Positions 1 through 42,385 of a stretch of 64,000 nucleotides of DNA are shown one piece after another. The stretch comes from Terriglobus roseus. Its GTDB lineage: Bacteria > Acidobacteriota > Terriglobia > Terriglobales > Acidobacteriaceae. A program made the translations under genes and the position numbers. The stretch covers positions 1 through 64,000 of the forward strand of contig NZ_FNSD01000001.1 of assembly GCF_900105625.1 (NCBI RefSeq). Direction: 5' to 3'. The notes below the pieces were generated by a model. The model did no database searches, was not told where the DNA came from, and worked only from the letters and a program-made list of their open reading frames with translations. Each line of letters begins with the position of its first letter. The stretch's first letter is position 1.

Positions 1-590
1 AGCATACCGAGTACCTTGCCCTGGATGGCAACGCGGTCAGCCGGTGCGAAGATGGGTGCCATCTCGCTGTTGGAGGGCTGCAGCCGGATGAGGTTACCTT
101 CCTTGTAGTAGCGCTTCAATGTTGCGTCGGAACCGTCCACAAGTGCCACGATGATCTCGCCCTCGCGTGCAGTGTTTGTGCGCTCCACCAGAACGTAGTC
201 GCCACTCACAATGTGTTCGTCGCGCATGCTGTCGCCGCGGACTTCAAGCGCAAACACCTCGCGATTCCCAATGATCTCCGAGAGCGAGATGCTTTCCGCA
301 CTCTCAATGGCTTCCACGGGCTGTCCGGCGGCGATGCGACCCATCAGGGGGAGACGGTCGCTGTTCCTGCGAGCACTGCGCGGCGCCAGGACATCGATGG
401 AGCGCGATCGGTTATGCGACCGCTGCAGCATGCCCTTGTTGTGCAGATTCGTGATGTGTTTGTGCACGGTCGCCAGCGAACTGAGGCCGAGACCTGCAGC
501 GATTTCTTCGTAGGAAGGTGAGTAGCCCTTCCGCTGGGTAAAACCCGAGAGGAAGTCGAGGACTTCCTTTTGTCGACGCGTGATCGCCAT
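1..590 (-). CDS. lexA: SOS repressor LexA (C-terminal end lies outside the window)
   Basis: Transcriptional repressor of the SOS DNA-damage regulon; RecA filaments trigger its self-cleavage. Reading the minus strand gives a protein starting MAITRRQKEVLDFL, with an N-terminal winged helix-turn-helix (about residues 1-65, recognition region SSLATVHKHITNL). The S24-type self-cleaving domain shows an Ala88-Gly89 cleavage site in RIAAGQP, catalytic Ser121 in RGDSM and catalytic Lys159 in DATLKRYY; the 38-residue Ser-Lys spacing fits the family. About 196 codons are present, so only the last few are missing. The ATG at 590 is 7 nt after a TAGAAT box overlapped by a 20-bp operator, which predicts autoregulation and a leaderless mRNA. 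Confidence 0.97.
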   Translation of the reverse strand, partial: MAITRRQKEVLDFLSGFTQRKGYSPSYEEIAAGLGLSSLATVHKHITNLHNKGMLQRSHNRSRSIDVLAPRSARRNSDRLPLMGRIAAGQPVEAIESAESISLSEIIGNREVFALEVRGDSMRDEHIVSGDYVLVERTNTAREGEIIVALVDGSDATLKRYYKEGNLIRLQPSNSEMAPIFAPADRVAIQGKVLGM

Positions 591-39660: not shown

Positions 39661-41091
39661 CTACCCCGCAGCGAGCGCCAGCCTGTTCGCTGCAATCAAG
39701 TCGTCACGAAGGTGCTTATAGAGTTCCTCGCGCGTTGGTTCGTCGCGTGCGCGAAGGATGGCGGATGGATGGAAGGTCGCCATCACCTGCTCGGCGAAGG
39801 GCGTAGACAAAATCTTTCCGCGATCTCGCATGAGAGAGAAGGTTCCGCCCAGCAGAGATTTCGATGCAGACGCTCCGAGGCAGAGAACGATCTTCGGCTT
39901 CAACGCATCCAGTTCCGCCAGCAGCCAGGGTTTGCATGCGACGATCTCGCTCATCCGCGGATTCTGGTGCAGGCGCAGCTTGCCGCGCTGCACAAATTTG
40001 AAGTGCTTCACGGCATTGGTCATGTAGACATCGGCGTCGTGGATGCCGGCCTCTGCGAGCGCGCGGCGCAGTACACCGCCCGCCGGTCCCACGAAGGGTT
40101 CCCCCTGCTTGTCTTCCTGGTCGCCCGGCTGTTCACCCACCAAAACCAGCGATGCATGCAGGCTCCCACGACCTGGCACCACCTGTGTCGCGTGGCAGTA
40201 CAGGTCGCAACCTTTGCACGAAGGGAGCGCAGCATTGATCGCTTTGAGCGTGTGTGAGGCAGGGACGAAGGGCGCGGCACTTGGCCTGCCGCTCTGCAGC
40301 GCCACCATGCCTTCCACACGTTTCGCTGCGGTCGCCATGAGATTGGGAAGCAGGTCGACCTCTGGCAGGTTGCCCCAGTAACGCACCGGCATGTGGCTGC
40401 GCATCGCGTCAGGATTCAGCCGCGCCGGATTGAAGATGTTGGCGTAATAACTTTTCCAGAGCTCTTCCAGTTCGTCTACCGCAGGCGCTTGGTCGCGCGT
40501 CACGGCGGGGCCGTACTGCAACTGCTTCGTTGCAGGCTCCCAGGATACGGATCCGTCAGGCGTCAGGATTGACCAGCGCATGACCGCAAAGCGTTCGGCG
40601 AAGAACGGTGCCGCGAGTTCGAGGATGCGATGCTGCGGTTCGTACCAGGCGATGAAGTGTTCTTCACCGTCCTGCTGCACGTTGCGGAAGCGGACGAAGG
40701 CGTGCATCTTGTGCTCATCGCGACGCACCTGCTGCTCCAGGCGCAGCAATTCGTTCACATCGCGATCCACCTCGACCTTCAGCAGATCGCGGTTGGATTG
40801 CAAGCGCCACAGCAGACGGTAGAGCAGGTTCCAACGTTGCGCGTCTCGATGATAGGAGGCGATCTGAGCCTTCTGCAGGAAGGCCTTCGGAACATGCGGT
40901 GCCTTGGCTTCGGTGCTGATCTCAAGAGGCAAAGAAGCGCTCTGGAAGAGATCGCTGGATGAGGGGACCGTCGCATCCTCGAAGTCGACATCATCGGGCG
41001 CCAAGCCCTGGGAGAGCGCTGCACGCGCAACGTCTCGCCACGCGTTGAAGTCTGGTTCGACGCGGACACGCCTCGTTGTCGAGGCGATCAC
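39661..41091 (-). CDS. DUF4130 - UdgX-type uracil-DNA glycosylase fusion
   Basis: A 476-residue two-domain DNA repair protein. The N-terminal half (about 1-255) matches the DUF4130 domain found linked to radical SAM/UDG systems (VRRDEHKMHAFVRFRNVQ, RFAVMRWSILTPDGS). The C-terminal half is a family 4-like UDG with iron-sulfur Cys (SCKGCDLY), motif A GEQPGDQED and motif B FHPSAILRA. It carries HFKFVQRGKLRLHQNP, whose His corresponds to the residue that traps uracil covalently in Mycobacterium UdgX. GTG start overlaps the radical SAM gene by 4 nt (GTGA). Confidence 0.93.
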   Translation of the reverse strand: MIASTTRRVRVEPDFNAWRDVARAALSQGLAPDDVDFEDATVPSSSDLFQSASLPLEISTEAKAPHVPKAFLQKAQIASYHRDAQRWNLLYRLLWRLQSNRDLLKVEVDRDVNELLRLEQQVRRDEHKMHAFVRFRNVQQDGEEHFIAWYEPQHRILELAAPFFAERFAVMRWSILTPDGSVSWEPATKQLQYGPAVTRDQAPAVDELEELWKSYYANIFNPARLNPDAMRSHMPVRYWGNLPEVDLLPNLMATAAKRVEGMVALQSGRPSAAPFVPASHTLKAINAALPSCKGCDLYCHATQVVPGRGSLHASLVLVGEQPGDQEDKQGEPFVGPAGGVLRRALAEAGIHDADVYMTNAVKHFKFVQRGKLRLHQNPRMSEIVACKPWLLAELDALKPKIVLCLGASASKSLLGGTFSLMRDRGKILSTPFAEQVMATFHPSAILRARDEPTREELYKHLRDDLIAANRLALAAG

Positions 41092-42356
41092 AGAGCGCCC
41101 CAGAGAGCACTACGGCCTGCTTCTTCGAACAAGCCCATCTGTTGTGCAGCAGGCTTTGTCACCACCGCTGGCGGCGCTACGAGTCCCGCAGCATCGGGAG
41201 GTGCAGGGAAATGGTCGGCGGCAATGAGATAGTTCGTCGCATCCTTCAGACGAACATGAAGTTTGCGAAGATCTTCGATGCCCAGGCGATGGTAGCGGCG
41301 AATGCTAAGGATGCGATCAACGTTGCGATAGCCAAGTCCGGGGACGCGCAGCAGCGTCTCGCGCGGTGCAGCGTTGACGTCAACGGGGAAAAACTCCGGA
41401 TGACGGCGCGCCCAGCCGAGCTTCGGATCGATGGCCAGATCAAGCTCGGGCTCTTTCTCTGTGGTGATCTCATCCGCAGCGAAGCCATAGTGCCGCATCA
41501 GCCAATCGGCCTGATACAGGCGATGCTCGCGGATCATGGGCGATGCCTTCAGCGGCAGCCGCGTGTCCGCCTCGGGGTAGGGCGAAAAGCCCGTGTAGTA
41601 AACCCGGCGCAGCTTATAGCTGTTGTAGAGGCCGCTCGCGCGCGTGATGATCTCACGATCGGTCGAAGGCGTGGCACCGATCACCATTTGCGTACTCTGA
41701 CCGGCGGGGGCAAACTTCGGCGCCGACTGGAAGCGTGTGCGGTCCTCGTCGGCCTCCTGCTTACGCTCATGGATCTGAGTCATCGTGGTCTCGATAACGG
41801 CCGATTTCTTTTCCGGTGCGAGCTGAACAAGATCCTGCTGGGTCGGCAGTTCGATGTTCGCAGAGAGACGGTCCGCGTAGAGACCCGCCTCGTCAAGCAA
41901 GCGCTGCGCACAGCCAGGGATAGCCTTGATGTGGATATATCCGCCGAAGTGATGCACGGTTCGCAGGGTCTTTGCGACTGCAATCAGCTGCTCCATCGTG
42001 TAATCCGGTGACTGGATGATGCCGGATGACAGGAACAGTCCTTCGATGTAGTTGCGTTTGTAGAAGTCGAGCGTGAGCGTGACAATCTCGTCTGGCGTGA
42101 ATCGTGCGCGGCGTATGTCGCTGCTGACGCGATTGACGCAAAAGACGCAGTCGTAAGTACAGAAGTTGGTGAGCAGCAGTTTCAGCAGACTGACGCAGCG
42201 GCCGTCCGGTGTGTAGCTGTGACAGATACCGTTGCCGTCGGAGTGGCCGACGCCCTGACCGTTGCCTGCCCGCTTCGCGCCCGAGGACGCGCAGGAGGCA
42301 TCGTACTTCGCCGCATCGGCAAGGATCTCGAGCTTCTGCTGTACGGTCATCGACAC
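41088..42356 (-). CDS. Radical SAM/HhH DNA modification-repair protein linked to UDG
   Basis: A 422-residue member of the family annotated as putative DNA modification/repair radical SAM protein. Cluster motif CTYDCVFC (CxxxCxxC), SPASM-free barrel with FLSSGIIQSPDYTMEQL, and a C-terminal helix-hairpin-helix (ETLLRVPGLGYRNVDRIL) for DNA contact. A Pro/Ala linker ends in QQMGLFEE, which resembles a sliding-clamp-binding peptide. GTG 42356 is 6 nt after a TAGGAT box; ATG 42350 is an alternative. The operator at 42366-42385 implies LexA control. Reaction unknown. Confidence 0.92.
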   Translation of the reverse strand: MSMTVQQKLEILADAAKYDASCASSGAKRAGNGQGVGHSDGNGICHSYTPDGRCVSLLKLLLTNFCTYDCVFCVNRVSSDIRRARFTPDEIVTLTLDFYKRNYIEGLFLSSGIIQSPDYTMEQLIAVAKTLRTVHHFGGYIHIKAIPGCAQRLLDEAGLYADRLSANIELPTQQDLVQLAPEKKSAVIETTMTQIHERKQEADEDRTRFQSAPKFAPAGQSTQMVIGATPSTDREIITRASGLYNSYKLRRVYYTGFSPYPEADTRLPLKASPMIREHRLYQADWLMRHYGFAADEITTEKEPELDLAIDPKLGWARRHPEFFPVDVNAAPRETLLRVPGLGYRNVDRILSIRRYHRLGIEDLRKLHVRLKDATNYLIAADHFPAPPDAAGLVAPPAVVTKPAAQQMGLFEEAGRSALWGAL

Positions 42357-42362
42357 ATACCT

Positions 42363-42385
42363 ATCCTAGCGAATAGGAAGCGAAG
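42363..42385 (-). promoter_or_regulatory. LexA-type operator and -10 box of the radical SAM-UdgX operon
   Basis: CTTCGCTTCCTATTCGCTAG on the minus strand (42385-42366) is 17/20 identical to the lexA operator. It runs into TAGGAT (42368-42363), which ends 6 nt before the GTG at 42356. Confidence 0.75.

Follow-up and report, generated by a model that had tools for sequence, protein, structure and literature searches.

A LexA-type operator common to lexA and a radical SAM-UdgX operon points to SOS control in Terriglobus roseus and its acidobacterial family

Results

Genes and putative operators at the locus

The DNA analysed here, referred to as the window, is a stretch of 64,000 nucleotides at the start of contig 1 of the Terriglobus roseus genome. 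Two units on its minus strand are considered, lexA and a radical SAM-UdgX operon, each with a putative LexA-type operator in front of it. The features are as follows.

3–590, minus strand: lexA, with its ATG at 590 and its open frame cut by the contig start; matches TIGR00498 (E = 8e-56), PF00717 and PF01726
598–619, minus strand: putative LexA-type operator of lexA, TTCGCTTTTTATTCGCTAGAAT; TTCGCT half-sites at 614–619 and 603–608, overlapping the -10-like TAGAAT at 598–603
39661–41091, minus strand: fusion of DUF4130 (TIGR03915) and UdgX (TIGR03914) by profile matches, TIGR03914 being above its cut-off; aligns to UdgX 6ail with E = 5e-52
41088–42356, minus strand: radical SAM protein, TIGR03916 (“putative DNA modification/repair radical SAM protein”, E = 9e-170), with CTYDCVFC (CxxxCxxC) at residue 66
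42363–42384, minus strand: putative LexA-type operator of the radical SAM-UdgX operon, TTCGCTTCCTATTCGCTAGGAT; TTCGCT half-sites at 42379–42384 and 42368–42373, overlapping the -10-like TAGGAT at 42363–42368

The identities assigned to lexA, the radical SAM gene and UdgX in the original prediction, which was made from the sequence and its open frames, hold by these matches. The LexA protein has a winged helix-turn-helix domain and an S24 peptidase domain. Aligned to LexA 3k2z, it shows AAGQP with the Ala-Gly cleavage site, GDSM with the Ser and TLKR with the Lys, these last two residues presumably being the catalytic ones. The radical SAM protein scores 565 bits against TIGR03916, for which the curated cut-off is 343.5, and 28.2 bits against Pfam Radical_SAM, slightly below the cut-off of 29.5. 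Its nearest named relatives among the matches listed are from Edaphobacter lichenicola and two acidobacterial MAGs, with 71–74% identity. To our knowledge, no chemistry has been assigned to this member of the pair. Its gene overlaps that of the fusion by 4 nt (41088–41091).

According to the available text of PMC10359453, UdgX removes uracil and then bonds to the abasic DNA so formed, and its signature consists of motif A GEQPG, the R-loop KRRIH and motif B HPS(S/A)(L/V)(L/V)R. The corresponding motifs in the fusion are GEQPGD, GKLRLH and HPSAILR. Compared with the published UdgX, the R-loop His is kept while the rest of the loop is changed, and motif B has Ile instead of Leu or Val. We take this His to be the residue that forms the bond between UdgX and DNA.

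Two promoters in the window have the same direct repeat

On the plus strand, the 20-mers at 601–620 (ctagcgaataaaaagcgaac) and 42366–42385 (ctagcgaataggaagcgaag) are alike at 17 of 20 positions, and our direct comparison agrees with the original prediction on this count. The coding-strand form common to both promoters is TTCGCT-N5-TTCGCTAGRAT. Because the TTCGCT half-sites are 11 bp, or one helical turn, apart, they give a TTC-N8-TTC direct repeat, and the second half-site merges with the -10-like TAGRAT. The claim that this repeat occupies the same place relative to the -10 box is true at both promoters on the coding strand. The gap from the box to the start codon is 7 nt at lexA (ATG, 590) and 6 nt at the radical SAM gene (GTG, 42356). 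Similar spacing was observed at the lexA loci of the family, where the start codon lies 6–8 nt past the box with its -10 in 17 of 18 cases; L127 deviates from this, and the gap is 24 nt at L178 in the hand-picked set described below. The short spacing suggests that the lexA mRNA may be leaderless.

The half-site repeat alone is not rare, as bare TTCGC-N6-TTCGC with at most one mismatch had 17 matches in the window versus 10.7 expected. TTCGCTN4ATTCGCTAGRAT with up to three mismatches matched the window twice when 0.07 matches were expected from shuffles, and two or more matches were seen in none of 100 shuffles. The whole genome, 4,809,171 bases in 2 contigs, was also searched. The 22-mer TTCGCT-N4-ATTCGCTAGRAT is present exactly only at the lexA and radical SAM-UdgX promoters in these 4.8 Mb. 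With up to three mismatches the full pattern had four matches genome-wide, two of them exact and the other two with three mismatches, and the reversed-pattern control had two.

Operator copies across the genome

The form TTCGCY-N5-TTCGCY has 17 exact sites in the T. roseus genome, compared with 6 for the reversed-pattern control. Eight of the 17 are accounted for by lexA, the radical SAM-UdgX operon and six further genes of SOS type. The motif thus occurs at repair genes beyond the window, as the original prediction had anticipated. The six further exact boxes are listed below.

imuA: box 14 nt before the start, on the opposite strand, within a run of GTCGCC, TTCGCC and TTCGCC at 11-bp steps
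dinB: box 148 nt before the listed start, pointing away from the gene
Second Y-family polymerase: box 26 nt before the start, pointing away from the gene
UmuD-like S24 protein (partial profile match): box 89 nt before the start
SplB-like radical SAM gene (closest to the families Rv2578c and PA0069, whose cut-offs it does not reach): box right where the open frame begins, pointing away
Ribonucleoside-diphosphate reductase (RNR) alpha subunit (frame cut by the locus end): box 121 nt before the listed start, pointing away

An ImuB-type Y-family domain is encoded downstream of imuA, at C1:4610657. A box matching 11 of 12 positions, TTCGCTTTTTGTTTGCC, lies 52 bp before the start of recA. Since the frame of the SplB-like gene begins at the box itself, the actual start codon is probably internal to that frame. 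Five boxes, those of imuA, dinB, the second Y-family polymerase, the SplB-like gene and RNR, are oriented away from their genes, so the geometry of repression would differ there. The UmuD-like protein covers only about the first 65–70 profile positions, and its gene may be broken. At L200 in this genome, the UmuD-like frame and an SRAP frame near one operator (L200:947-1411 and L200:1992-2321, both on the minus strand) each match only roughly the initial half to two thirds of their profiles; these frames may be broken genes or reflect assembly frameshifts.

Among the remaining exact sites, L202 precedes a NUDIX gene by 167 nt. Another (L085, C1:3337369) is between the genes for a metallophosphoesterase and 2-oxoglutarate dehydrogenase E1 with no SOS-type neighbour, and none was recognised at L203, L204, L206, L207 and L210, where the open frames were judged by eye. 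Their number is close to that of the reversed-pattern control, and these six sites were treated as chance matches. Two near-identical uncharacterised proteins of 130 aa with CxxC pairs, L201:1530-1922 (plus strand) and L208:1096-1488 (minus strand), each begin 12 nt after an exact operator. The L201 protein, the one of the two that was scanned, had no Pfam match. Judged by sequence, the two represent a possible new SOS gene family.

We considered whether the pattern may simply be a favoured core-promoter shape, that is, a spacer and an extended -10, with no repressor site. The second half-site does merge with the -10 at both sites in the window and also at the lexA promoters of the family, and the pattern used for the family search itself demands TANRAT. 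However, imuA, dinB and the second Y-family polymerase have the repeat on the opposite strand with no such -10, and L147 also has it with no -10, while the full form at only two promoters genome-wide is a poor fit to a general promoter element. We regard this alternative as very improbable.

Conservation of the box in the acidobacterial family

TTCGCN6TTCGCTANRAT with at most one mismatch gave 221 matches in 117 of 150 family genomes, and the reversed pattern gave 60 matches in 50 genomes. The bare repeat is present exactly in all 150 genomes, but its reversed control is present in nearly all of them, and a search with the bare repeat alone therefore says little. By BLAST, lexA was identified at 18 of the 30 family loci listed with the box and the -10; L131 in this set is SRAP with the box 264 nt upstream, L139 is Vsr with the box 25 nt upstream, and several others have no recognisable SOS gene. 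A further 40 stretches were hand-picked, mostly for AT-rich spacers, and constitute a biased sample. At nine of these the gene is lexA, one repeating an earlier locus, and several have no gene that could be named. The box in the picked relatives also precedes recA (L183), uvrB (L167), a DnaE2-like error-prone polymerase gene (L163) and an SplB-like gene (L177).

Other genes were found behind the box in these genomes. In two relatives it lies 170–200 bp before the replicative helicase gene dnaB, which was confirmed at L173 and identified by eye at L185; we know of no other SOS regulon with dnaB as a target. Small proteins of 57–74 aa in two families directly follow strong boxes in relatives, one family at L119:1287-1493 (minus strand) and L196:177-347 (plus strand), the other at L157:1324-1539 and L158:1368-1589 (both minus strand). 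The two that were scanned, L119 and L158, had no match in Pfam or NCBIfam.

The radical SAM gene is rare, being present in 6 of 150 family genomes and in 25 of 396 in the phylum sample. All 17 distinct radical SAM operons of the family have a UdgX-type partner. The box is located no more than 110 bp from the estimated start in 16 of the 17, with 12 of 12 positions matched in 13 operons and 11 of 12 in three, although the 17 are not independent events since some close relatives have near-identical upstream matches (L213/L214, L220/L222). In 3435 draws of control windows from the same loci, a match of 12/12 occurred in 0.03% and one of at least 11/12 in 1.02%. The one exception, L216, has no credible box, its 12/12 match being at -229 without a -10. 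The named acidobacterial loci L005, L006 and L007 have the family box at 12, 12 and 11 of 12 positions, respectively; L006 and L221, which match in both box and flanking DNA, are probably from the same genome.

These results bear on whether the likeness of the two window promoters could have arisen by chance, which the original prediction had thought unlikely. Half-sites alone are common: TTCGCTN5TTCGCT with up to two mismatches has 645 matches in the T. roseus genome versus 521 reversed, and searching with the half-sites only was abandoned as too noisy. Nevertheless, the excess over the shuffle expectation for the full pattern and the set of SOS genes that carry the box argue against two unrelated promoters, and the conservation at 16 of 17 family orthologues already refutes chance. 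We consider its probability negligible.

Diverged boxes in Acidobacteriota outside the family

Twelve radical SAM genes were found outside the family (loci L223–L235, one gene extending over two loci). None of the twelve has a box of the family form, and for ten of them, which showed 34–39% identity, no UdgX match was detected in the flank fetched. A single operator for all Acidobacteriota was ruled out, as these loci lack the family form. Only one of the twelve genes, L234, has a diverged box. It is in genome G329 (family f67), where TGCGCCCGATTTACGCC-TACCAT at the radical SAM gene and TGCGCCCCATTTGCGCC-TATCGT at lexA (L239) are identical at 15 of 17 positions. None of 3845 control windows exceeded 13/17, the best score among them, a control that is after the fact since the pair of boxes was noticed by eye before testing.

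Five lexA promoters from outside the family were compared. Two look related to the family box by eye (TTCGCC-N5-TTTGCT at L236 and the TGCGCC repeat at L239), L237 has TTCACC-N5-TTCACC, and nothing clear was seen at the other two. Genome G184 had no lexA match at E 1e-15.

Operators at the same operon in other groups

We examined up to 200 bp upstream of the operon in named genomes for five LexA boxes. The set of probes includes boxes named in PMC8565304. Among the best 80 of at least 591 confirmed relatives, GTTC-N7-GTTC or its complement was present at 35 of 40 alphaproteobacterial loci (0.13 expected), GTTC-N4-GAAC at 4 of 11 verrucomicrobial loci (0.00 expected) and CTGT-N8-ACAG at 2 of 4 betaproteobacterial loci (0.00 expected), while no exact LexA box was found at the gammaproteobacterial (0/11, one locus lacking upstream DNA), Bacteroidota (0/4), planctomycete (0/4) or other (0/3) loci. 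At L049 and L082 hardly any upstream DNA is available. One alphaproteobacterial locus, L057, has GAAC-N4-GTTC, and three loci without an exact box (L015, L032 and L036) show CTGT-N8-ACAG with one mismatch by eye. The Bacteroidetes motifs in the available text of PMC8565304, GGA-N5-TCC and CTAA-N5-TTAG, were at none of the four Bacteroidota loci of the same best 80. Stray copies of GGA-N5-TCC at one beta-, two gammaproteobacterial and two verrucomicrobial loci are near the chance figures of 0.2, 0.3 and 0.8.

The original prediction had likened the repeat to the alphaproteobacterial LexA box, given as GTTC-N7-GTTC in the available text of PMC8565304. The likeness is apt in that the TTC cores of both are 11 bp apart and that the alphaproteobacterial box precedes most of the alphaproteobacterial homologues. 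It is confined to the TTC-N8-TTC frame: the acidobacterial half-site is TTCGCY rather than GTTC, and the phylum is a different one.

In Xanthomonadaceae a conserved palindrome, GTCTCA-N5-TGAGAC, was seen by eye upstream of the radical SAM gene at L019, L021, L024, L025, L028 and L058, with one mismatch in L021; it was not seen at the Luteibacter loci L068 and L070. It matches no LexA box known to us. The three xanthomonad genomes searched have two or three such sites each, and the reversed control has none. One site per genome precedes a TIGR03817-like DEAD/DEAH helicase, which is below the model cut-off on the part read (L244 and L246 were scanned, L245 assigned by likeness) and which we take to be MrfA-like; the L244 helicase has a weak HRQ1 winged-helix match. 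Where a genome has a third site, which is the case in one of them, a DUF2167 gene is close by. These sites raise the question of whether a dedicated repair regulator may act at the palindrome.

Conceivably, the repeats at the two T. roseus promoters are bound by a regulator other than LexA, for example a further repressor that senses damage. The binding of LexA is itself predicted from sequence, and the different palindrome at the same operon in Xanthomonadaceae suggests that other regulators may govern it. On the other hand, a box directly before lexA in many family genomes, together with a textbook set of SOS genes, is what is usually seen when LexA regulates its own gene, and we give the non-LexA alternative only a very slim chance.

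Discussion

LexA control of the radical SAM-UdgX operon, as the original prediction had it, is well supported by the sequence comparisons and very probably correct. Since the same operator is present at the operon, at lexA and at other damage-response genes, LexA very probably makes the operon inducible by damage. We are highly confident that the whole can be explained by TTCGCY-N5-TTCGCY acting as the LexA operator of the family, through which lexA and the radical SAM-UdgX operon would be repressed until DNA damage relieves the repression.

We propose that a LexA dimer would sit on the direct repeat between the -35 and the -10, covering the start of the latter, and so shut off both lexA and the operon. 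As the box reaches from the -35 side of the promoter as far as its -10, occupancy of the box should block RNA polymerase. DNA damage would load RecA on single strands and lead LexA to cleave itself. The operon would then be turned on along with the translesion polymerases, imuA-imuB, the SplB-like protein, RNR and recA. UdgX would take out uracil and cross-link itself to the abasic DNA, while the radical SAM protein and its DUF4130 partner may contribute companion repair chemistry of an unspecified kind.

The available text of PMC8565304 describes SOS control of a UDG base-excision pair, COG1573-COG4277, in Verrucomicrobia, Alphaproteobacteria and Bacteroidetes. The SOS link of such a gene pair is thus not new, having been published for three other groups. 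As in those groups, a uracil-DNA glycosylase-type gene and its partner are under SOS control here, though by prediction; the acidobacterial pair differs in its operator and in having DUF4130 fused to UdgX. COG4277 is, we assume, the TIGR03916 radical SAM family. A directly repeated rather than palindromic LexA operator also has a precedent in Balneolaeota, where TTACACATATTTTWTACATA was found by comparative genomics and a gel shift was demonstrated (available text of PMC7739468); its sequence and the group are different from ours. The string “Acidobacteri” does not occur in the available main text of PMC8565304, and the literature searched, judged mostly by titles and the beginnings of abstracts, yielded no description of an acidobacterial LexA operator. 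Likewise, we found no literature naming UdgX with “SOS response” or UdgX with “radical SAM”. What appears to be new is the acidobacterial operator, its predicted regulon and control that seems to be conserved while operators change. In other words, the LexA operator would be new and its regulon of a known type, with the radical SAM-UdgX operon as a likely conserved member.

A broader proposition, which we hold to be slightly better than even, is that in several phyla the operon serves as a standard SOS effector and that its operator changes with the specificity of LexA. The operators would be TTCGCY-N5-TTCGCY and TGCGCC-N5-TDCGCC in Acidobacteriota, GTTC-N7-GTTC in Alphaproteobacteria, GTTC-N4-GAAC in Verrucomicrobia and CTGT-N8-ACAG in Betaproteobacteria. 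In Xanthomonadaceae the operon would have passed to another repair regulator, acting at GTCTCA-N5-TGAGAC and shared by the operon with an HRQ1/MrfA-like helicase.

For the Acidobacteriota, these findings provide a testable SOS box and a gene list. They place the little-studied radical SAM-UdgX pair among the genes predicted to be induced by damage, under a control that appears to be kept as operators change, and this placement opens a direct experimental approach to the lesion that the pair repairs.
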